Positions 37,901-56,300 of a DNA stretch of 64,000 bases are shown here, piece by piece. The position numbers and the translations under genes were made by a program. The notes under the pieces are model-generated. The model saw only the letters and a program-made list of their open reading frames with translations. It was not told where the DNA came from and did not search any database. This DNA comes from Cyanosarcina radialis HA8281-LM2 (GTDB lineage Bacteria; Cyanobacteriota; Cyanobacteriia; Cyanobacteriales; CCAP-1448): the NCBI GenBank assembly GCA_019359615.1, contig JAHHHA010000010.1:1-64000 (forward strand), in the 5' to 3' direction. Each line of letters starts with the position of its first letter. Position 1 is the first letter of the stretch.

Positions 37901-38716
37901 CTAATTGTTATCTGGGATACAAAAATCTGTCAATTGCTCTCGTGCTTCAGGGTACAAGATCGCTGCTTCTCCCCGCAGCAGTTCGACGATCTCGTATTTG
38001 TAGTTTTGAAAAGTGGGGGAACGTCTGAGTGAATAATTGCGATCGCTAGGCAGATCTAATGACACTTCCCGCTGAATCGTACCGGGTCTAGAACTGAGGA
38101 CGTAAACCCGTTGAGAAAGAAAGACGGCTTCCTCTACGTCATGGGTAATCATCAAGATAGTAATCCCTGTTTGCCGCCAAAGTTGTAGCAAAAATTGCTG
38201 CATGGTTTCTTTGGTTTGCACGTCTAACGCTCCGAAAGGTTCGTCCATCAAGAGAATTTTTGGTTGACAAGCTAGGGCGCGAGCGATCGCAACTCGCTGC
38301 TTCATCCCCCCAGATAATTCTTTAGGAAGCGACCTAGCAAATTGCAACAAGCCCACTACTTCTAGGTAATAAGCTACTCGCTCTCTTCGTTCGTTTTTAG
38401 GCACTCCCTGCAACTTTAAGCCGAAGCCTATGTTGTCAGCGACGCTCATCCAAGGGTAAAGGGTATAGCTTTGGAATACCATACCGCGATCTGGACCCGG
38501 GCCGATGACGCGACGGCCATCGACTAAAATTTCCCCCGTTGTGGGGGTATCTAGTCCGGCAATTAACCTTAATAGAGTTGATTTTCCCGAACCCGACGCT
38601 CCCACGGCGCAGACAAATTCGGATTCTTCAATATGCAAGTTGATATCTTCAAGGGCAACGGTTGCTCCTCTTTTAGTGGGAAATTGTTTGTGTAATTGAG
38701 AAACTTCTAAATGCAT
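37901..38716 (-). CDS. NitT/TauT-family ABC importer, ATP-binding subunit (probable guanidine importer)
   Basis: 271 residues. Walker A GASGSGKST (about 38-46), signature LSGGMKQRVAIARAL (about 133-147), Walker B ILLMDEPFGALD, switch ITHDVEEA. SsuB/TauB/NrtD-like. Belongs with the permease and binding protein upstream. In Synechocystis the homologous trio (sll1080-1082) lies beside the guanidine hydrolase, and the riboswitch at the head of this operon supports guanidine or a related cation as substrate. That is inference. Confidence 0.88.
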   Translation of the reverse strand: MHLEVSQLHKQFPTKRGATVALEDINLHIEESEFVCAVGASGSGKSTLLRLIAGLDTPTTGEILVDGRRVIGPGPDRGMVFQSYTLYPWMSVADNIGFGLKLQGVPKNERRERVAYYLEVVGLLQFARSLPKELSGGMKQRVAIARALACQPKILLMDEPFGALDVQTKETMQQFLLQLWRQTGITILMITHDVEEAVFLSQRVYVLSSRPGTIQREVSLDLPSDRNYSLRRSPTFQNYKYEIVELLRGEAAILYPEAREQLTDFCIPDNN

Positions 38717-38801: not shown

Positions 38802-39641
38802 CTACCTACTCGCCCAACGACAAGAAAGGTGTTGTAGAAGGCGAAATAGTAAATCGATCGCGAGTCCAATGATGCCAATAACAATTAGTCCGACAAAGAT
38901 TTCATCTGTTTTGAGATAACGTTGACCGACGCTAATTCGACGACCTAAACCTTCTGTTGCTGCTACTAATTCAGAAACGATTACTAAGTTCCAAGAAGCT
39001 GCCATGTTGACGCGGCAGGCATCAATAATATTTGGCAAAATAAAGGGGAAGATGACTTGAAACAGCACTTGCGATCGCTTAGCTCCTAAAGTGTATGAGG
39101 TTTCGATCGACTCCTTGGGAACGAATTTAACGGCATCCATAATCATTAAAGTGTTAAAAAATAAAGTGCCGATAAAAATTAGTAAGATCTTTGTCGTTTC
39201 ACCCACGCCAAAATACAAAATCAGTAAAGGGATAAATGCTGGTGCGGGCATATAGCGCACGATGCCAATAATTGGCTCTAGCAGAGCGCGTAGACTGGCA
39301 AAAGTCCCCATTAATGTGCCTAAAGGGATAGAAATTATTGCTGCCAAGGAGAAGCCGCTAATTACTCGAAAAAGGCTAAAAGCAATATCTTTAGGCAACT
39401 CTCCCGTTAGCCAAAGACGTTGAATTGCCGATAAAACTTGCAGGGGAGTTGGGAGAAATAGCGGTTTGACTAATCCAGAATTAGATACGATCCACCACAA
39501 GCATAAAGGAATCCCAATCGAGAGACAAATCAAAACCCAATTGAGAGATTTAGGGATATCCTCAGCAATCCGCCAGAAAACTGTCGGGGGCAACATTTTC
39601 TGTTCGCGATCGATCTTTGATTTTGACAATTTATTAGTCAT
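38802..39641 (-). CDS. NitT/TauT-family ABC importer, permease subunit
   Basis: 279 residues, about six helices. The EAA-type loop is in FVPKESIETSYTLGAKRSQV LFQVIFPF..., coupling to the ATPase. MPAPAFIPLLILYFGVGETT is the standard BPD_transp_1 core. Part of the importer in the guanidine operon. Start ATG at 39641. Confidence 0.9.
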   Translation of the reverse strand: MTNKLSKSKIDREQKMLPPTVFWRIAEDIPKSLNWVLICLSIGIPLCLWWIVSNSGLVKPLFLPTPLQVLSAIQRLWLTGELPKDIAFSLFRVISGFSLAAIISIPLGTLMGTFASLRALLEPIIGIVRYMPAPAFIPLLILYFGVGETTKILLIFIGTLFFNTLMIMDAVKFVPKESIETSYTLGAKRSQVLFQVIFPFILPNIIDACRVNMAASWNLVIVSELVAATEGLGRRISVGQRYLKTDEIFVGLIVIGIIGLAIDLLFRLLQHLSCRWASR

Positions 39642-39682: not shown

Positions 39683-40723
39683 TTAGGTTTTTGGCGATTT
39701 TTCCGCATAAGCCTTAACAAAGCGATCGTCAAAGATTTTGGTTAAATCTGGAGTTTGTTTTATCAGACCGCTATCTACCAAGAATTTACTAATTTCTTGG
39801 GCGGCATACGGCAAAGATGTCATATCTTTACCGGGTTTAAATGCTTGCAAATTCTCTTCAATGGTAAAAATTTTAGTGCCAGCTTCATATTGCTTGTATT
39901 CTTCGACTGTTACTCCTGCTCTTTTAGCCATAATTTCATAAGCTTTATCTTTATTACCCTCGATAAATTTCAAAGTATCAAACCAACTATTAACTAGAGA
40001 TTGCACTTCTGCTGCTCTATCTGTCACCATTTGGCGAGTGACTACTAAATGATCGGGAATAGCACCTGGAAAGTCTTTAGAACTAAACAGTTCTTTGCTG
40101 CCAGGACGCTCTAACGCCCTAGTTGTAAAGGGGGCAAAAACTCCCACTGCATCTACTTGTCCGGCAACAAAGGCCGCCGCTGCCGCGCCTGTTTCTAAAG
40201 GTTGGAATTCAATATCTTTTTGCGTCAATCCGGCTTTCTTCATGCCTAATAACAACAAGAAATGATCTACAGTTCCTTCTTCAGCAGCTACTTTTTTACC
40301 TTTCAAATCGGCAATAGTATTAATCCCTTCTCTGACAATAATTTTGTCATTTCCAGTCGAGTTATCGTTGACCAAAACAATAACTTGATCCGAGCCTGCC
40401 CCCACTGAGCTAATAGTGTCGTTCAAAGTTTGAGTATTAGCGTCAAGCTGGTTAGCAGTTAGAGCTTTAATCGAGTCTAAATAGCCATCAAACCACTTTA
40501 GATCTACGGCAACTTTATTAGCTTCAAATATCTTTTCATCTTGGGCAACTTGCCAGGGAAACCAACCAGGCCAAGCACTAAAACCGAACCGAACTGGTGT
40601 TGCATTCGAGGTCGTGCCAGGTGAGTTTTGCGAATTTGGCGTTGGTGTTTGAGTACAGCTAACAACAATAACTAAAGCGACAAAAAATAGAGCCAAGTAA
40701 GAAAGGATAGATCTAATTTTCAT
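39683..40723 (-). CDS. NitT/TauT-family substrate-binding lipoprotein
   Basis: 346 residues. Signal with lipobox FFVALVIVVSC (Cys23), a Thr/Pro/Ser/Asn linker, then an NMT1/SsuA-like domain: VRFGFSAWPGWFPWQVAQDE, VAAEEGTVDHFLLLLGMKKA, ETGAAAAAFVAGQVDAVGVF. Aromatic residues near FSAWPGWFPW may form a cation-binding cage. The ligand is probably guanidine from context, not from motif. It follows hypB by 31 bases. Confidence 0.9.
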   Translation of the reverse strand: MKIRSILSYLALFFVALVIVVSCTQTPTPNSQNSPGTTSNATPVRFGFSAWPGWFPWQVAQDEKIFEANKVAVDLKWFDGYLDSIKALTANQLDANTQTLNDTISSVGAGSDQVIVLVNDNSTGNDKIIVREGINTIADLKGKKVAAEEGTVDHFLLLLGMKKAGLTQKDIEFQPLETGAAAAAFVAGQVDAVGVFAPFTTRALERPGSKELFSSKDFPGAIPDHLVVTRQMVTDRAAEVQSLVNSWFDTLKFIEGNKDKAYEIMAKRAGVTVEEYKQYEAGTKIFTIEENLQAFKPGKDMTSLPYAAQEISKFLVDSGLIKQTPDLTKIFDDRFVKAYAEKSPKT

Positions 40724-40754: not shown

Positions 40755-41462
40755 CTATTTGCTAACTGAAGCCAGAGCGAGCGAGCGCTGTTGTCGATTT
40801 ACCACCTGCCTGACCCAATCAAACCAAATATCCAATCCCTCCCCAGTTTTAGCTGAAACCGGAGCGATCGCCACATGAGGATTCATCTGCCGAACGTTGC
40901 CAGCAATGCGATCGATATCGATATCTAAATAAGGAGCCAAATCGATCTTAGTAATCAACAAACAATCTGCTTCCTGAAACATAATCGGATACTTCAGCGG
41001 TTTATCTTCCCCTTCAGTTACGCTCAAAAGTGCCACCTTAAAGTGTTCTCCTACTTCAAACTCAGCCGGACAAACTAAATTACCGACATTTTCCACCAAC
41101 ACCAAATCGAACTCTTTCGGCTCGTATTGACCTTCTAATTGATGAATTCCACCCGCCACCATCTTCGAGTCTAAATGACAGGAACGCCCCGTATTAATTG
41201 CTATCACTGGCACGCCGTATTGCCGCAAACGTTCTGCATCTAACTCAGTCGTCATATCACCTTCAATGACAGCAATTTTTAACTCATCATTCAAAGCTGC
41301 GATCGTCTTTTCTAACAAAACCGTCTTCCCCGCCCCGGGACTGCTCATAATATTGAGACAAGTAATCCCCCACTCATCAAAATGCGCTCGATTATGGTCA
41401 GCCCCCGCCTGATTAGCATGAAGTAAATTAATTCCTAACCCTGCCTCAAAAGTTTGATGCAT
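40755..41462 (-). CDS. hypB: HypB-type Ni GTPase, accessory to guanidine hydrolase
   Basis: 235 residues. P-loop [14 protein letters not shown] (about 41-54), switch region [20 protein letters not shown], metal site [12 protein letters not shown] (Cys and His), [14 protein letters not shown], and G4 TKIDL. A short N-terminus lacks the His-rich Ni store. No hydrogenase genes are nearby. In guanidine-degrading bacteria this HypB paralogue (GhaB) loads Ni into GdmH. Confidence 0.93.
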
Positions 41463-41521: not shown

Positions 41522-41878
41522 CTAAACGCCCACTGCATACTCAATCTTCTCAATCTTCAATTCCCTACCAGATCGAATATTTTCCATCGGCGACTCGCAT
41601 TGAGGACAAGCATACCGAAGTCCTATTTCTGGGCGATATTCTTCCTGACAGCGATCGCAAAAAGCAATCAAAGGAATTTCATCAATTGCCAACCTCACCC
41701 CCTGCAAAAAAGTATTCCGACTTTGCACCTCAAAAGCAAATTGCAAACTTACTGGTTCCACGCAAGTAAACTCACCAACAGTCAGACGAATGCAACTAAT
41801 TTGCGGTCGTTCTGGTTGAGACTCCCACCAATCCTTTACAGTTAAAATCAGCGCCTTAGTCATGTCAGTTTCGTGCAT
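41522..41878 (-). CDS. hypA: HypA-type Ni chaperone, accessory to guanidine hydrolase
   Basis: 118 residues. MHETDMTKAL has the invariant MHE Ni ligand, and CDRC (about 74-77) with CPQC (about 91-94) form the zinc site. Its ATG directly follows the gdmH stop with no gap, which implies coupling. Its counterpart in the known system is GhaA, which works with GhaB to insert Ni. Confidence 0.93.
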   Translation of the reverse strand: MHETDMTKALILTVKDWWESQPERPQISCIRLTVGEFTCVEPVSLQFAFEVQSRNTFLQGVRLAIDEIPLIAFCDRCQEEYRPEIGLRYACPQCESPMENIRSGRELKIEKIEYAVGV

Positions 41879-43039
41879 TCAAATCCACTCTTGAATAACT
41901 TCCGGTTGCGCTTCTGGATGGATATAATTAGGTTTTTCTTTCCTCGGTAACTGCCCTGAAACCACTAAATGAGCCATCGTGTCGCAAATCACGCGAGTAG
42001 CCATCAACGAAGTCATATCGCTGATATCATAAGGGGGCGAAACTTCCACCACTTCCAGCCCGCAAACAGGCGATCGCTGGATAATTTTACCCAACATATA
42101 AAGCGCCTCTCGCGGCAGTAAACCACCCGGTTCCGGCCAGCCAGTTCCCGGAACAAACCCCGCATCAATGCAATCGATATCGAAGCTGATATAAACGCAA
42201 TCAGTGCCATCTAATGCTCGTTCGAGAGCGAATTCTACCGCTGCATCCAAGCCCCTCTCTGTAATATCAGTTACCGTCAAGATATTGGTAGCTCGTTCTC
42301 GACAAACTTTGACTCCTTGACGGGGAACTTGCCAACCGCCAATGCCTAATTGCACTAAATTTTTTGCTGGCGCATTCTTGATATTAGTGGCATGAAACCA
42401 AGGGCAAGTGTGCATCCGTTCGTCTAAATCGGTTTCTTGGGTATCGACGTGGCGATCGAAGTGAATAATTCCGACTTTTTTATCGCCCAAATGACGGCAA
42501 ACGCCCCGAACTGTAGGAAACCCGATCGAATGATCTCCGCCTAAAATAATCGGAAATGCCCCCGAACCAAAAATATGAGCGATTCCCTTAGAAATCTGAT
42601 CGAAAGACTTTTCAATATTGGCAGGAATCGTAAATATGTCGCCGACATCGCAGAGGGTAATTTGTTCCCTTAAATCGACCCCTAATTCAAAGTTATAGGG
42701 CGTATACAGGGCAGAAATCCGGCGAATTCCTTGAGGACCGAAACGAGTTCCAGGACGATAGGTAGTACCGCAATCGTGAGGCACGCCGACGATCGCTACA
42801 TCGTATTTGCCGACTTGACGGACATCTTCTAAATAGGGGGCTTTGAGAAAAGTATTAATTCCGGCGAAGTGAGGTAATTCTCCGCGCGAAAAAGTCGGAA
42901 TCGATCGATCTCGAATGCTATTTGCTGCTTCTAGTCCTAACTCTAAACCGCGATCGACTTCTTGTTGCCAACCCGTTAGGGGTAAATTAGCTTCTTTTTC
43001 AAGAGCGCGATTAGCTTCAGAATCAAATTGTTCAGTCAT
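41879..43039 (-). CDS. gdmH: Ni2+-dependent guanidine hydrolase (ureohydrolase family)
   Basis: 386 residues from the ATG at 43039. An in-frame GTG at 43057 lies in the terminator T-run and is rejected. The ureohydrolase metal residues are GGDHS (His170), HFDRHVDT (Asp195, His197, Asp199; note DRH, not the DAH of agmatinases) and SFDIDCIDAGFVPGTG (Asp287, Asp289). The 60-residue N-terminal extension and neighbours (HypA/HypB, importer, guanidine-I riboswitch) match Sll1077 of Synechocystis, shown to split guanidine into urea and ammonia. Older annotation would call it agmatinase (speB). Downstream urt genes fit recapture of urea. Confidence 0.93.
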   Translation of the reverse strand: MTEQFDSEANRALEKEANLPLTGWQQEVDRGLELGLEAANSIRDRSIPTFSRGELPHFAGINTFLKAPYLEDVRQVGKYDVAIVGVPHDCGTTYRPGTRFGPQGIRRISALYTPYNFELGVDLREQITLCDVGDIFTIPANIEKSFDQISKGIAHIFGSGAFPIILGGDHSIGFPTVRGVCRHLGDKKVGIIHFDRHVDTQETDLDERMHTCPWFHATNIKNAPAKNLVQLGIGGWQVPRQGVKVCRERATNILTVTDITERGLDAAVEFALERALDGTDCVYISFDIDCIDAGFVPGTGWPEPGGLLPREALYMLGKIIQRSPVCGLEVVEVSPPYDISDMTSLMATRVICDTMAHLVVSGQLPRKEKPNYIHPEAQPEVIQEWI

Positions 43040-43047
43040 GGGAATAC

Positions 43048-43107
43048 CAAAAAACACAGCCCAGGAAATTCATAACAGATCCATAACTGTTACGTACCTC
43101 CCGGGCT
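43048..43107 (-). terminator. Riboswitch-controlled intrinsic terminator before gdmH
   Basis: Minus strand: AGCCCGGGA pairs with TCCTGGGCT (nine pairs, one G-U), enclosing a TAACAG/CTGTTA inner hairpin, then six T residues at 43049-43054. The left arm is the conserved 3' part of the aptamer, so ligand-bound folding excludes the terminator. The T-run ends nine bases before the ATG. Confidence 0.9.
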
Positions 43108-43205
43108 TTTTTCCCGCCGTGTTACCAACCATATAGTTGGCTTACTTCTCTTGGACCAGTCATTTAAACCCGATCGAGTCAAACCGGAACCCTAGAAGCT
43201 ATTAG
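43094..43205 (-). promoter_or_regulatory. Guanidine-I (ykkC) riboswitch
   Basis: The minus strand shows the ykkC core in order: CTAGGGTTCCG, ACTGGTCCAAGAG, a hairpin CCAACTATATGGTTGG, ACACGGCGGGA, and AAGCCCGGGAGG. These are the conserved guanidine-binding segments of subtype 1 (ACGGCGGG loop, not a ppGpp-type variant so far as I can judge by eye). Ligand binding should let transcription proceed into gdmH. Confidence 0.94.
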
Positions 43206-43227
43206 TTTTTTCACTGGATAAGGTTCT

Positions 43228-43269
43228 ATTCAATCAATCAATCGGATCGATGAATGTATTCAAAGTTAC
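43228..43269 (-). promoter_or_regulatory. Candidate NtcA-activated promoter of the guanidine operon
   Basis: The box GTA-N8-TAC lies at 43256-43269 (minus: GTAACTTTGAATAC). Exactly 22 bases downstream on the minus strand is TTGAAT (43228-43233), a four-of-six match to TATAAT, the spacing known for class II NtcA promoters. The transcript would start about 15-20 bases before the aptamer. Confidence 0.65.
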
Positions 43270-43408
43270 AAAGATTAGCAAGGCATCGCGCCAGCAAGTA
43301 TCGCTCTCATTCAAATTTCTGTTGCAGCGATCGCTATTGTCGAGGGAGAAGTGAGAAGTTCAGGAGCTTTGGCAGTGTTGAGTGTTGAGTGTGAAGTTAA
43401 TAAGGTTT

Positions 43409-43468
43409 CCATCTCCCCATCTCCCCATCTCCCCATCTCCCCATCTCCCCATCTCCCCATCTCCCTCT
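43409..43468. repeat. CCCCATCT octamer array abutting the psb29 stop
   Basis: About seven units. The G-rich strand is the minus strand, the psb29 mRNA sense, so the array lies directly in its 3' UTR. Confidence 0.9.
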
Positions 43469-44167
43469 CTACTCTCCTACTTCCTTATTCTCATCGGCAG
43501 GAGAAGCGATCGCTTCTTTCTCTCGGGCCCGTTGTTCTCGTTTTTTGCGATCGGCATTGAGAGCATCTTCGATCGCTAACTGCATCTGAGATAACTTTTC
43601 CAGATTGCTGCGATAGAGTTCTAGGTCTTTTTGCAATTTTTCTGTCGGCAAGTGCAAAGCGGTACAGATTTGCTCGTACAGTTTTTCATCTTTAGCTGCT
43701 TCTGGATCTGTCAGTTCTAACAAAGTAAACAGCCCGATCCCAAACAGACGGCTGTATTTGAATTTGGGGTTGTTAGCGATCCCGCTCAAAATCGTCGATA
43801 ATTCCCCCCCGCTGTTGATGGCAGCGAGCGAGTCCATCAATCCCGCTCCGCTCTTCACCAGCGCTTCTAGATGCTTAGCATCCTGCTGGTACTTAGAGGC
43901 TTCCCCTCCAACCGATCGACAGAGGGCGGCAAAAATTGAATCTCGATCGCGTTCTGGTCGATAGCCTTGCATGAATTTGTTAAATGCGGTCACTACGCCC
44001 AAAGCATAGATGGGGTCGTAGCGAAAATCAGCATTAACCGCCAGCAAGTGCATTTCTACCATTAATTCCTCTACTACTTTGTGGTAGATGGAATTAATCG
44101 GACGGGTGTGATAAGTATAGAAATCTCTTTTGGTATCTGAAACGGTACGAAGGTTATTCACTGGCAA
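43469..44167 (-). CDS. psb29: Photosystem II biogenesis protein Psb29/Thf1
   Basis: 232 residues. The family start NNLRTVSDTKRDFYTYHTRP INSIYHKVVEELMVEMHLL, then the central FNKFMQGYRPERDRDSIFAA LC, and a charged coiled-coil C-terminus (QLAIEDALNADRKKREQRAR). Needed for PSII assembly and FtsH protease stability in thylakoids. Monocistronic by appearance. Confidence 0.95.
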   Translation of the reverse strand: MPVNNLRTVSDTKRDFYTYHTRPINSIYHKVVEELMVEMHLLAVNADFRYDPIYALGVVTAFNKFMQGYRPERDRDSIFAALCRSVGGEASKYQQDAKHLEALVKSGAGLMDSLAAINSGGELSTILSGIANNPKFKYSRLFGIGLFTLLELTDPEAAKDEKLYEQICTALHLPTEKLQKDLELYRSNLEKLSQMQLAIEDALNADRKKREQRAREKEAIASPADENKEVGE

Positions 44168-50562: not shown

Positions 50563-50996
50563 CTAGGCACGATAAGAGGCGTTCAGCCATCAGCTTGTTG
50601 TTCGAGCCGATAGCTGAATACCGAACGCAATTTGTATAAATCTCGCATAACTGGCGATCGCTTTGAGATTCGCTGGTTAACTTGCTATTTCCTAGAAAGC
50701 CATTAGCTACCCGAACAGAACCCATAGCATATGGCTATTCCTATGACCTATGACCCATGCCCCATGCCCTATTATCTACCTATGCAAAAAGCGTTTTTTT
50801 GTTATGCAGAAACTTCATATAACGAAATATTTTGTAATTTTATATACTAATTACCTCTATCGATAGGCATAAATTATTACTAATAGAGGCAAAGATAACG
50901 CAAAAAGATGAAGGGTATAAGGCTGAAGAAAAGCCAATATTTATCCTTCGCGATTTTGAGTTTATGTCACTCCTGAATTATCATTTAGGCGATCGA
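50563..50996. other. Intergenic, 434 bp, containing the nrtA promoter
   Basis: The first 200 bp has no gene. It includes CTATGACCTATGACCCATGC-type short repeats (about 50738-50770). The NtcA-dependent promoter lies at 50834-50875, leaving a 115-bp leader to nrtA. Confidence 0.7.
50834..50875 (+). promoter_or_regulatory. NtcA-activated promoter of nrtABCD
   Basis: GTA-ATTTTATA-TAC at 50834-50847 matches GTA-N8-TAC exactly. A -10 box TAAATT starts at 50870, with 22 bases between, the canonical class II NtcA arrangement. No -35 box is needed. Confidence 0.85.
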
Positions 50997-52310
50997 ATGA
51001 CAAGATTTTCCCGCAGGCAGTTTATCATCACGGCAGGAGCCGCTACAGCCGGAACCATGCTGGCTCACGGTTGTTCCTCATCAACTTCTAGCAATTCCCC
51101 TTCATCAACTGTTAGTCAAGCAGCGAATGCTCCCAAAGTAGAAACTACTCAAGCCAAGTTAGGATTTATCGCTTTAACTGATTCTGCCCCCCTAATTATT
51201 GCCCAAGAAAAGGGGTTATTTGCCAGGTACGGCATGAAGGATGTGGAAGTCGTCAAGCAAGCTTCCTGGCCTGTTACTCAAGGTAATTTAGAAATTGGTT
51301 CGGCAGGCGGTGGCATTGATGGGGCGCACATTTTAACTCCTATGCCTTACCTGATGACTTTGGGTAAGACTAAAACTCAGCAGCCAGTACCGATGTATAT
51401 CCTGGCGCGGTTAAACACCAACGGGCAAGCCATATCAGTTGCTAACACTTATAAAGATTTGAAAGTAGGCTTAGATAACAAAGCCCTCAAAGAAGCCTTT
51501 AGTAAGGCTAAAGCTGGTGGCAAATCAGAAATTAAAGTTGCCGTGACATTTCCTGGTGGCACTCACGACTTGTGGATGCGTTACTGGCTAGCCGCTGGTG
51601 GCATCGATCCCACCAAAGATGTTTCAGTTACTCCTATTCCACCACCGCAAATGGTGGCCAATATGAAATTGGGCAGCATGGAAGCTTTTTGCGTGGGAGA
51701 ACCCTGGAACGCTCAATTAGTCAACCAAGGTGTAGGGTATACGGCTTTAGTCACTGGAGAATTGTGGAAAGACCATCCTGAAAAAGCTTTTGCCATGCGA
51801 GCCGATTGGGTAGATAAAAATCCTAATGCTGCTAAAGCACTATTAATGGCAATCATGGAAGCCCAACAGTGGTGCGAAAAAGCTGAAAACAAAGAGGAAA
51901 TGTGCAAAATTGTTTCCCAAGCTAAATGGTTCAAAGTGCCAGTAAAAGATATCATCGAACGCTCTAAAGGGAATATAGATTACGGCGACGGTCGCCAGCA
52001 ACAAAATTTTGGCGAGCGCATGAAGTTCTGGGCAGATGATGCTTCCTATCCCTTCAAGAGTCATGACTTGTGGTTCTTAACTGAAAACATTCGCTGGGGT
52101 TACATTCCAGCCGATACCAATACTAAAGAATTGGTCGATAAAGTCAACAAAGAAAATTTGTGGAGAGAAGCAGCTAAGTTACTTGGCGTTGCTGATGCTG
52201 AAATTCCTAAAAGCACTTCTCGCGGGGTAGAAACCTTCTTTGATGGCGTGAAGTTTGACCCAGAAAAACCAGAGGAATACTTGAAAGCTTTGAAGATTAA
52301 GAAAGCTTAA
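50997..52310 (+). CDS. nrtA: Nitrate/nitrite-binding lipoprotein NrtA
   Basis: 437 residues from the ATG at 50997 (an ATG at 50964 is in frame). Tat-like signal SRRQFIITAGAATAGTMLAH with lipobox Cys. The NrtA domain includes LGFIALTDSAPLIIAQEKGL, GGTHDLWMRYWLAAGGIDP and CVGEPWNAQLV, contacting nitrate. Periplasmic receptor of the ABC permease. Confidence 0.96.
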   Translation: MTRFSRRQFIITAGAATAGTMLAHGCSSSTSSNSPSSTVSQAANAPKVETTQAKLGFIALTDSAPLIIAQEKGLFARYGMKDVEVVKQASWPVTQGNLEIGSAGGGIDGAHILTPMPYLMTLGKTKTQQPVPMYILARLNTNGQAISVANTYKDLKVGLDNKALKEAFSKAKAGGKSEIKVAVTFPGGTHDLWMRYWLAAGGIDPTKDVSVTPIPPPQMVANMKLGSMEAFCVGEPWNAQLVNQGVGYTALVTGELWKDHPEKAFAMRADWVDKNPNAAKALLMAIMEAQQWCEKAENKEEMCKIVSQAKWFKVPVKDIIERSKGNIDYGDGRQQQNFGERMKFWADDASYPFKSHDLWFLTENIRWGYIPADTNTKELVDKVNKENLWREAAKLLGVADAEIPKSTSRGVETFFDGVKFDPEKPEEYLKALKIKKA

Positions 52311-52465
52311 GCAAGTCAAGCGTCGGCAAGCTCAGCTACCAAATAAAAAGCTTGCACTGACCGAAGCGAAGGTGTCAAAAGTCAAAAATAAAACAGCTAA
52401 TTCTGAGGTTTTTGGCTTTTGATTATTTCACTGTCTTAAATATAGAATTATAGCTAGGAGAAACA

Positions 52466-53311
52466 ATGACTGCTACCACTGAATTTCGATCTTCAAGAAA
52501 AAAGAATAAAAATCCGATCGCCAAGTTGTTGCAAAAACAATTACCAATATTTTTGCCACCAATAGTTGCGATCGCAGGCTTTTTAGTTATCTGGCAGATC
52601 CTTTGTCCCGGAGGTTCTAAAGGTTTGCCTGGGCCTTTGCAGGTATGGAATGAAACTGTAGATCCTTATATTACGCAACCATTTTTTGATAACGGCGGTC
52701 CTGATAAAGGTCTGGGTTGGCACATTTTAGCTAGCCTACAAAGGGTGGGAATTGGATTCTCTCTGTCAGCTATAGTTGGGATTGGTTTAGGTGTCTTAAT
52801 TGGGGTTAACCAGTTTTTCCATCGCGCTCTCGATCCAGCATTTCAAATCATGCGAACCATTGCGCCTTTAGCTTGGTTGCCGATCGCTCAAACTGGATTT
52901 AGCGACAATGCTAGGGCAGCACTTTTTGTGATTTTTATCACAGCCATCTGGCCGATAATCATTAACACTGCCGAAGGAGTCAAGAATATACCACAAGACT
53001 ATAGAAATGTGGCTAGAGTTTTAAAACTGCCAGCGAGAAAATATTTCTTGAAGATTCTCTTTCCCGCAGCAGTTCCTTACATCTTTACTGGATTGAGAAT
53101 TGCGATCGGCTTGTCCTGGCTGGCAATTGTAGCAGCAGAAATGTTGATGTCAGGCAGTGTAGGAATTGGTTCGTTCATTATCGATGCCTTTACTTCTAGC
53201 TTAATTAGCCAGATTATTGTCGCTGTAGTTTACATTGGTGTCGTTGGCTTTGTCCTCGATCGCTTAGTCGGTTTCATCGGCTCTTTATTAGTAGCCCAAG
53301 AACACAAATAA
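52466..53311 (+). CDS. nrtB: Nitrate ABC transporter permease NrtB
   Basis: 281 residues, about six helices. The cytoplasmic EAA-type loop is RNVARVLKLPARKYFLKILF PAAVPY, and MRTIAPLAWLPIAQTGFSDN is a NrtB signature. ATG at 52466 preceded by AGGAGAA. The 155-bp gap after nrtA shows only short repeats. Confidence 0.95.
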   Translation: MTATTEFRSSRKKNKNPIAKLLQKQLPIFLPPIVAIAGFLVIWQILCPGGSKGLPGPLQVWNETVDPYITQPFFDNGGPDKGLGWHILASLQRVGIGFSLSAIVGIGLGVLIGVNQFFHRALDPAFQIMRTIAPLAWLPIAQTGFSDNARAALFVIFITAIWPIIINTAEGVKNIPQDYRNVARVLKLPARKYFLKILFPAAVPYIFTGLRIAIGLSWLAIVAAEMLMSGSVGIGSFIIDAFTSSLISQIIVAVVYIGVVGFVLDRLVGFIGSLLVAQEHK

Positions 53312-53390
53312 AAAGTAAGCAATGGGGAACGGATAATTTTGTTGCCCCATTCTCAATTTTTGACTTTTGACTTTTGACTTTTGACTTATT

Positions 53391-55406
53391 ATGTCTTTCT
53401 TTGTTGAAATCGACCACGTAGATCGCATATTTCCCCTACCCAACGGCGGTAAATATGTGGCGCTAAAGAATATTGAACTCAAAATCAAACAAGGCGAATT
53501 TGTTTCCTTAGTCGGTCACTCCGGCTGCGGGAAATCTACATTGTTGAATATTGTCGCTGGTCTAGATCGACCGACCCATGGCGGGGTAATTCTTGAAGGA
53601 CGAGAAGTGAAGGGGCCGGGGCCAGATCGGATGGTCGTGTTCCAAAATTACTCCTTGCTGCCTTGGTTGACAGTCCGAGAAAACATCGCCCTCGCTGTCG
53701 ATGAAGTATTTGCAGGCAGACCTAAAGGCGAACTTAAAGAGATTATCGAACATCACATCGATTTAGTAGGATTGCAGGCAGCGGCGAAAAAGCGCCCTGG
53801 AGAACTATCGGGGGGGATGAAACAACGGGTAGCGATCGCTCGCGCCCTAGCCATTCGTCCGAAGTTGCTGCTGTTAGACGAACCGTTTGGTGCCTTGGAT
53901 GCCTTAACGCGCGGCGGTTTGCAAGAACAGTTGATGAAGATTTGCCAGGAAAGCCACGTTACTTGCATCATGGTGACGCACGATGTCGATGAAGCCCTGC
54001 TGCTGTCGGATCGGATCGTGATGCTCACTAACGGGCCGGAATCTCACATCGGACAGATTCTCAACGTGCCCATCCCTCGCCCCCGCGAACGCATGGAAGT
54101 GGTGAAGCATCCCCTGTACTACCAGATGCGGAACGAAATTATCTACTTCCTCAACCAGCAGAAGCGGGCGAAGAAACGCGCCAGCCAGGTATCTACCCCC
54201 CAAGTGGCGATTACTGGTGGAGGACTGGAAAAAGTCAGCTTAAATCTGGGCTTTATTCCTCTGACCGATTGCGCCCCGCTGGTAGTGGCCAAAGAAAAAG
54301 GCTTCTTCCAAAAACACGGATTTACTGAAGTCAACCTCAGCCGCGAACCGAGTTGGCAAGACATCGCCCAAGGAGTGGCTACAGGTCGTCTCGATGCTGC
54401 TCAGATGGTGGCGACTATGCCCCTGGCTTTGACGATTGGCATGGGCGGGAAAAAACCGCTGCCAGTGGTGACGGCTTTAATTCTGAGCCGCAACGGTAAC
54501 GCGATTACCTTCAGCAAAGAACTTTATCAGCAAGGGGTGCGATCGCTCAAAGATTTCCGCGAGGCGATCGATCGAACTCCCGATAAGGTTTACAACTTGG
54601 GGGTAGTACATCCAGCTTCCATGCACCACCTGCTCTTGCGCTACTGGCTGGCGGCTGGCGGTATCGATCCCGATCGAGATGTGAATTTGATGGTGATTCC
54701 ACCTACCCAAATGATAGACCATCTCAAATCCGGTCAGATCGACGGCTATTGCGTCGGCGAACCGTGGAATTCTCGCGCTGTCTCTGAAGATTTAGGTTTT
54801 ATCGTCGCTCACGATCTAGAAATCTGGAAAGGTCATCCAGAGAAAGTTTTAGGGCTGCGAGAAGATTGGTTAGAGCAGCACCCCCAAACTCATATGGCTT
54901 TGGTGAAAGCTTTGCTGGAAGCTTGCGACTACTGCGACAATCCGCGCAATCGAGAAGAAATCTTAAGCTTGCTGTGTCAGCCTCAATACGTCGGTTCGGC
55001 AGCAGAGTATACCCGCAACGGCTTTATCGATCCATACGATCGCGGTACGGGAGAAGAACCCCAATTGTTGCGGCGGTTCAACCAGTTCCATGTCGATAAT
55101 GCCAACTGTCCGGGACGAGTTGAGGGCTTATGGATTCTGACTCAATTGGCCCGTTGGGGAATTGCTCCTTTCCCGAAGAATTGGCTGGAAATCGTCGAAC
55201 GGGTGCGTCGGGTAGATTTATTCTGCGAGGCGGCTAGGCAATTGGGTTTACCGGATATCGAGCCGGATCGGGAGCCGTTTGCCCTGTTCGACAAGATGGT
55301 GTTCAATCCTGACGATCCGGTGGGGTATCTGAAGCGCCTAGACATCGTGCGGGAGTTTGAGGTGGAGGAAATTGTTATCGATCCGACTGCGGATGTGAAG
55401 GTTTAA
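53391..55406 (+). CDS. nrtC: NrtC: ATPase fused to a NrtA-like regulatory domain
   Basis: 671 residues. The ATPase domain (1-255) has Walker A GHSGCGKST, signature LSGGMKQRVAIARAL, and Walker B LLLLDEPFGALD. A linker (about 256-283) leads to a C-terminal NrtA-homologous domain (about 284-660: LGFIPLTDCAPLVVAKEKGF, MHHLLLRYWLAAGGIDPDRD, GYCVGEPWNS), which mediates ammonium inhibition of transport in Synechococcus. Confidence 0.97.
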   Translation: MSFFVEIDHVDRIFPLPNGGKYVALKNIELKIKQGEFVSLVGHSGCGKSTLLNIVAGLDRPTHGGVILEGREVKGPGPDRMVVFQNYSLLPWLTVRENIALAVDEVFAGRPKGELKEIIEHHIDLVGLQAAAKKRPGELSGGMKQRVAIARALAIRPKLLLLDEPFGALDALTRGGLQEQLMKICQESHVTCIMVTHDVDEALLLSDRIVMLTNGPESHIGQILNVPIPRPRERMEVVKHPLYYQMRNEIIYFLNQQKRAKKRASQVSTPQVAITGGGLEKVSLNLGFIPLTDCAPLVVAKEKGFFQKHGFTEVNLSREPSWQDIAQGVATGRLDAAQMVATMPLALTIGMGGKKPLPVVTALILSRNGNAITFSKELYQQGVRSLKDFREAIDRTPDKVYNLGVVHPASMHHLLLRYWLAAGGIDPDRDVNLMVIPPTQMIDHLKSGQIDGYCVGEPWNSRAVSEDLGFIVAHDLEIWKGHPEKVLGLREDWLEQHPQTHMALVKALLEACDYCDNPRNREEILSLLCQPQYVGSAAEYTRNGFIDPYDRGTGEEPQLLRRFNQFHVDNANCPGRVEGLWILTQLARWGIAPFPKNWLEIVERVRRVDLFCEAARQLGLPDIEPDREPFALFDKMVFNPDDPVGYLKRLDIVREFEVEEIVIDPTADVKV

Positions 55407-55463
55407 GCTGTAGATTTTTTTTAACGCAAAGGTACGCAAAGGTAAGCGCAAAGGTTCGCCAAG

Positions 55464-56300
55464 ATGCAAACTACTAATAGCAATGTCGCTCTCGATCGCA
55501 AGTCTCAGGTTGCCAACCCGTTTTTGGTAATTGAGGATGTCTCTAAGGTCTATCGAACTCCTGACGGACTGCATACGGTTTTGGATGGGGTTAATCTGAC
55601 GGTTGGTGAAGGTGAGTTTATCTGTCTGATCGGTCACTCTGGTTGTGGCAAATCGACGCTGTTGAATATGGTGTCTGGGTTTAATACACCGACGACGGGA
55701 GAAGTGCGGTTGCAAGATCGGAGGATCGATCGACCCGGACCCGATCGCATGATGGTGTTTCAAAATTACTCGCTGCTGCCTTGGATGAGTGCGTTTGATA
55801 ACGTTTATTTGGCAGTCGATGCGGTTTATCCGAACAAACCAGAGCAGCAGAAAAAGGGGCTGGTAAAAGAGTATTTGAACTTGGTGGGATTGTCGGAAGC
55901 TGCCGATAAGAAACCGACTCAACTTTCTGGGGGGATGAAACAACGGGTCGCTATTGCCCGCGCTTTGGCGATTCACCCGGAAATTTTGATTTTAGACGAG
56001 CCGTTTGGGGCGTTAGATGCGATTACTAGAGAAGAGTTGCAAGAAGAACTGTTAAAAATTTGGCGCGAACATCAAGTAACCGTGTTGATGATTACGCACG
56101 ATATTGATGAAGCCCTATTTTTAGCCGATCGATTGGTGATGATGACGAATGGCCCTCATGCCAAAATTGGCGAGGTGTTAGACATTCCTTTTCCTCGCCC
56201 TCGCAATCGAGCCAAAATTATGGAAGATTCTACCTACTACGAGTTGCGCAATTATGCCCTCGACTTCCTGTTCCGCCGTTTTGCTCATGATGTAGATTAA
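55464..56300 (+). CDS. nrtD: NrtD: nitrate transporter ATPase
   Basis: 278 residues. Walker A GHSGCGKST, signature LSGGMKQRVAIARAL, Walker B ILILDEPFGALDAITREEL, switch ITHDIDEALF. Forms the heterodimeric motor with NrtC. narB, which often follows, is not present. Confidence 0.96.
   Translation: MQTTNSNVALDRKSQVANPFLVIEDVSKVYRTPDGLHTVLDGVNLTVGEGEFICLIGHSGCGKSTLLNMVSGFNTPTTGEVRLQDRRIDRPGPDRMMVFQNYSLLPWMSAFDNVYLAVDAVYPNKPEQQKKGLVKEYLNLVGLSEAADKKPTQLSGGMKQRVAIARALAIHPEILILDEPFGALDAITREELQEELLKIWREHQVTVLMITHDIDEALFLADRLVMMTNGPHAKIGEVLDIPFPRPRNRAKIMEDSTYYELRNYALDFLFRRFAHDVD

Follow-up and report, generated by a model that had tools for sequence, protein, structure and literature searches.

A predicted NtcA-activated promoter in series with a guanidine-I riboswitch at a cyanobacterial gdmH operon

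NtcA-dependent promoters and guanidine-I riboswitches are each already known. The canonical NtcA-activated class II promoters, such as those of glnA, urtA and nirA, share the GTAN8TAC site, and in Anabaena this site has been described as GTA-N8-TAC with a T or C followed by an A at the inner positions and with AT-rich flanks; its most conserved part in the ChIP data is GT-N10-AC (PMC3898017). NtcA and a riboswitch have also been found together, with opposite sign to what we propose below: the leader of gifB combines one transcription factor with one riboswitch, NtcA repressing and glutamine activating, and both read nitrogen excess (PMC6316151). With respect to the genes, the closest described system is the sll1077-1082 operon of Synechocystis PCC 6803, for which we did not find the assignment of an NtcA promoter in the literature. 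Our search likewise yielded no paper that joins NtcA to a guanidine riboswitch, although the papers on the Synechocystis NtcA regulon and on the discovery of GdmH fell outside it and a prior mention is thus possible.

The DNA analyzed here (the window) comprises the first 64,000 nucleotides of a contig of Cyanosarcina radialis HA8281-LM2. It contains an operon with the same gene order (gdmH-hypA-hypB-ABC), GdmH orthologue and riboswitch class as sll1077-1082 (PMC8390497, PMC10094980). The features are collected in Table 1. The first gene product is co-linear with the solved structures 7esr/7oi1 over residues 7-385, the next best structures scoring 595 and then 168 bits, and on the basis of orthology to Sll1077 and of the adjoining hypA and hypB nickel chaperones we assign it as GdmH. 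The leader resembles that of gifB in the pairing of one transcription factor with one riboswitch, but NtcA would activate here and the ligand is the substrate of the pathway. Unlike at the canonical class II promoters, the promoter is followed by a ligand-gated terminator and has a -10 element that deviates from TAN3T.

Table 1. Features of the gdmH operon and its leader in the window
Feature	Position	Strand	Basis
NtcA box TGTA-N8-TACA, TGTAACTTTGAATACA	43270-43255	minus	read from sequence
NtcA box core GTA-N8-TAC, GTAACTTTGAATAC	43269-43256	minus	flanked by T and A
Predicted -10 element TTGAAT	43233-43228	minus	conserved spacing of 22 bases
Predicted transcription start	43219-43222	minus	inferred: box centre + 41.5
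Guanidine-I riboswitch aptamer, full length	43206-43096	minus	RF00442, 79.1 bits (gathering 63)
Intrinsic terminator	43107-43049	minus	fold -30.8 kcal/mol, z -5.7, then six U
gdmH, Ni-dependent guanidine hydrolase orthologue	43039-41879	minus	structures 7esr/7oi1, 781 bits
hypA-type nickel chaperone (ghaA)	41522-41878	minus	TIGR00100, 115.9 bits
hypB-type nickel GTPase (ghaB)	40755-41462	minus	TIGR00073, 312.7 bits
ABC transporter substrate-binding protein, putative guanidine importer	39683-40723	minus	TIGR01728, 231.9 bits
ABC transporter permease	38802-39641	minus	NCBIfam TauC/SaoP-type matches below cut-off
ABC transporter ATPase	37901-38716	minus	NCBIfam SaoA/NrtD-type matches below cut-off

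The aptamer is the only RF00442 copy in the genome, and the terminator ends 10 bases ahead of the gdmH start codon (43039). The 5' arm of the terminator, AGCCCGGGAGG, doubles as the 3' aptamer strand (43107-43096); the two structures are thus expected to compete, as in a guanidine-on switch. On account of this overlap we classify the leader as having a competing expression platform.

According to the original prediction, a GTA-N8-TAC motif precedes a plausible -10 box by 22 bases, the latter matching the consensus at only four of six positions. Both points hold: the gap between the core and TTGAAT is exactly 22 bases on the minus strand, and TTGAAT shares four of six bases with TATAAT. Following the rule that relates box centre and start (around 41.5 bases, as quoted in PMC3898017), transcription would begin around 13-16 bases 5' of the aptamer. 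TTGAAT has a T at both ends and lacks the A at position 2, and thus does not obey the strict TAN3T rule; among the comparison sites an A at position 2 is found in 80% and a T, as in TTGAAT, in around 14%. Given that TAN3T occurs at a spacing of 20-24 in just 45 of the 119 comparison sites, the strict rule is of no diagnostic use in this case. Judged by its sequence, we call the window promoter an NtcA-box promoter with a non-canonical -10; the deviation would be tolerable, yet it suggests a weak promoter. The hexamer TAGAAC, a few bases 3' of TTGAAT, was considered as an alternative -10 and dropped, as the conserved spacing is 22.

The poor -10 would also fit a box that is merely a chance match, in which case an unrelated weak promoter, or read-through from psb29, would drive the operon and the riboswitch would be its sole control. 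Read-through is made conceivable by the fact that between psb29, which lies upstream and ends at 43469, and the leader no terminator was found on the operon strand, but it leaves the conserved box unexplained; against an unrelated promoter speaks that a scan of 43030-43500 found none of the sigma-70 type. The numbers also weigh against chance. In the genome of 6.5 Mb TGTAN8TACA occurs 48 times, compared to 38 times for the reversed pattern, and several of the 48 are repeats near contig ends. From this count a stretch of 100 to 150 bases should contain around 0.001 occurrences, which argues that the box in the window is not a chance match. A genome search with GTAN8TAC-N20-24-TAN3T, a pattern that the window site cannot match, gave 129 matches versus 177 for the reversed controls; without enrichment, this pattern alone is therefore no evidence genome-wide. 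Scored with a 26-column matrix, built from 119 sites at other loci with the window left out, the box in the window reached 19.96 bits, the median of the real sites being 20.04, and it ranked second of the 127,950 positions in the window. A plus-strand site at 50834 ranked first; it has TAAATT at a spacing of 22 and precedes a nitrate-transporter-like ABC operon (50964-56300) that encodes a substrate-binding protein, a permease, an ATPase-binding-protein fusion and an ATPase.

To follow the box across cyanobacteria, guanidine-I aptamers were located in sampled genomes of the class and the phylum, and 140 loci were fetched. Outside family f26, GTA-N8-TAC was present within 120 bases 5' of the aptamer in 46 of the 74 sampled gdmH loci, whereas dinucleotide shuffles gave 1.2 boxes on average (maximum 5 in 200 shuffles) and each of the other spacers from N3 to N15 was found at most five times. 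Motif density fell from 3.45 per kb within the 200 bases preceding the aptamer to 0.21 per kb in more distant upstream DNA, and it was 0.08 per kb downstream. A protein search for named gdmH loci with an aptamer, a set that overlaps the former in part, gave a box within 120 bases in 44 of 71 cases. In the non-redundant union, with the window included, 83 of 131 gdmH loci had a box within 120 bases and 94 within 250; a recognisable box was absent from about a quarter to a third of gdmH loci. The motif was also enriched at the 53 aptamer loci where the first gene is not gdmH (13 within 120 bases, 1.0 expected; 28 within 250 bases, 1.9 expected). Together, the boxes upstream of guanidine riboswitches span around 25 cyanobacterial family groups with a fixed geometry. 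The sister genus of the window has GTGTATTTTTATAC with TATGCT at spacing 23, and a locus of another family (L066) has the identical GTAACTTTGAATAC. Within the outgroup f32, which consists of small genomes outside the class that presumably lack NtcA, there was no enrichment (1 of 23 loci, 0.3 expected).

The geometry of the boxes is informative as well. TAN3T stands at exactly 22 bases after the box in 34 of the 119 sites, while most other spacings have 0-5 and the runner-up, spacing 28, has 11; at spacing 22 the frequencies of the T and the A are 0.73 and 0.80. Among relatives the boxes are placed anywhere between -45 and positions beyond -200 relative to the aptamer, which makes some of the 5' leaders much longer. 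Just one of the 119 boxes starts nearer than -44; at such distances the predicted start would come to lie within the aptamer itself. This near absence can be understood from the need for an activator site to precede the complete aptamer. The DNA adjoining the boxes cannot be aligned from locus to locus (median identity 0.25). This argues that selection, and not recent descent alone, has preserved the box, and that it moves together with the operon rather than with the gene upstream. The combined score of box and -10 was 23.2 for the window, versus a median of 17.1 for matched gdmH loci and of -11.5 for controls. Since the box recurs much more often than expected from shuffles, from other spacers or from flanking DNA, and considering the fixed -10 spacing and the unalignable flanks, we regard a chance match with the riboswitch as sole control as improbable.

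The genome itself also bears on which regulator would use the site. It encodes NtcA (378.9 bits to the NtcA model), and the seven weaker CRP-family matches to the same model could be taken to mean that another CRP/FNR-family regulator binds here. The motif derived from the comparison sites, however, has the traits of the Anabaena NtcA site (PMC3898017), the top-scoring site of the window precedes the nitrate-transporter-like operon, and glnA of this genome has the same type of box, GTATCGCTAGATAC, followed by TAGGAT at a spacing of 22, equal to that of the window promoter. Use by another regulator is accordingly the least probable of the alternatives that we considered.

Direction of control is a separate matter, as NtcA might bind and repress, or account for a minor share of expression only, as at gifB. 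A precedent next to a riboswitch exists, as gifA and gifB are repressed from sites at -30.5 and -7.5 (PMC6316151). The 22-base gap to the -10 is, in contrast, the geometry of an activator, with the spacing seen at known NtcA targets, and the Synechocystis data have the opposite sign to gifB: the orthologous operon is repressed by excess ammonium, a response that Slr1821 also influences (PMC10094980), and its last gene, sll1082 (labelled nrtD), goes up upon nitrogen deprivation (PMC12638213). Repression or a minor role by NtcA thus seems even less credible than a chance match.

The best explanation for the leader, and in our view a very probable one given sequence and conservation, is a promoter activated by NtcA that is connected in series with a terminator controlled by guanidine. 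The original prediction of an NtcA box upstream of the guanidine riboswitch is in this respect supported by the conservation and fixed geometry of the box, by the presence of NtcA and by the similar glnA promoter. NtcA with 2-oxoglutarate would bind the box, centred around 41.5 bases upstream of the start, and recruit RNA polymerase to the weak -10, so that, with poor or oxidised nitrogen, RNA synthesis starts around 15 bases 5' of the aptamer. The nascent RNA would terminate before gdmH unless guanidine binds the aptamer which, judging from the known riboswitch class, would then withhold the common strand from the terminator stem. The products of the operon would take up guanidine and convert it by hydrolysis into urea and ammonium. 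Since the two steps, initiation and termination, follow one another, their effects are expected to be multiplicative, and output would roughly follow the product of NtcA activity and guanidine, that is, a graded AND.

The Synechocystis expression data agree with both inputs. The requirement for nitrogen limitation that was originally proposed fits the repression of the operon by ammonium, but as a strict condition it probably goes too far: Sll1077 was up 20-fold in a guanidine-producing Synechocystis strain for which nitrogen starvation was not reported (PMC8390497). For this reason a graded AND is preferred over a strict one. The arrangement points to guanidine being used by cyanobacteria as a source of nitrogen and not just cleared as a poison, since a detoxification system should not await nitrogen shortage. 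The gdmH operon would then join the NtcA regulon, which would account for the ammonium repression in Synechocystis, and it would provide a natural gate made of a transcription factor and a riboswitch, with a lineage seemingly missing one input as a built-in comparison.

Several lineages depart from the strict pattern. In family f26 (genomes of 2.3-3.7 Mb, probably picocyanobacteria) none of 15 loci had a strict GTA-N8-TAC, but all 15 had GT-N10-AC at -47 to -51, compared to 12 of 116 control windows, and all 15 had the hexamer NANNNT at spacing 22. Within genus f5/g5, presumed to be Synechocystis, four genomes have the aptamer; two of them carry GTAN8TAC and two GTAN8CAC, and all four boxes are followed by TAGGGT at spacing 22. 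In genus g193 (L138, L147, L162, L169, L177 and L179) gdmH lacks the box and has TTGACC-N17-TTAGAGT instead, likely an activator-independent promoter with a -35 element in place of the activator site. One reading is that throughout the class Cyanobacteriia guanidine use is by default, and was ancestrally, controlled by the gate of NtcA plus guanidine, that this gate has degenerated in the picocyanobacteria-like family and that one lineage has lost it for a -35 promoter. The gate would then extend to other operons with a guanidine riboswitch (UAAP genes of the carboxylase route, symporters, stand-alone importers and type III glutamine synthetase). We give this reading even chances; if true, such a gate has not been described before.

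Several minor observations were made along the way. At three loci (L139, L148 and L180) a guanidine-I aptamer with an NtcA box is directly followed by a type III glutamine synthetase gene (591 bits to TIGR03105 for L148), with importer genes 3' of it. At five others (L090, L122, L135, L157 and L167) the aptamer is followed by a sodium/solute symporter, a candidate guanidine importer, and the boxes are at about -136 to -165. Relatives of gdmH without an aptamer seed in the 700 upstream bases (416 for L237) were found at L182, L188, L198, L201, L210, L218, L237, L241 and L251, and that of L241 (Prochloron) has two GTAN8TAC boxes upstream. In the window, a tandem GGGGAGAT-type repeat lies between psb29 and the NtcA box (about 43408-43465). 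The same TGTAGCTTAAGCTACA is found around 85 bases from several contig ends (G000 contigs C5, C38 and C47, bases 85-101) and is probably part of a repeat that breaks the assembly. Finally, a contig labelled Candidatus Gracilibacteria (L195) contains a cyanobacterial gdmH together with an aptamer and an NtcA box, and probably represents a mislabelled bin.
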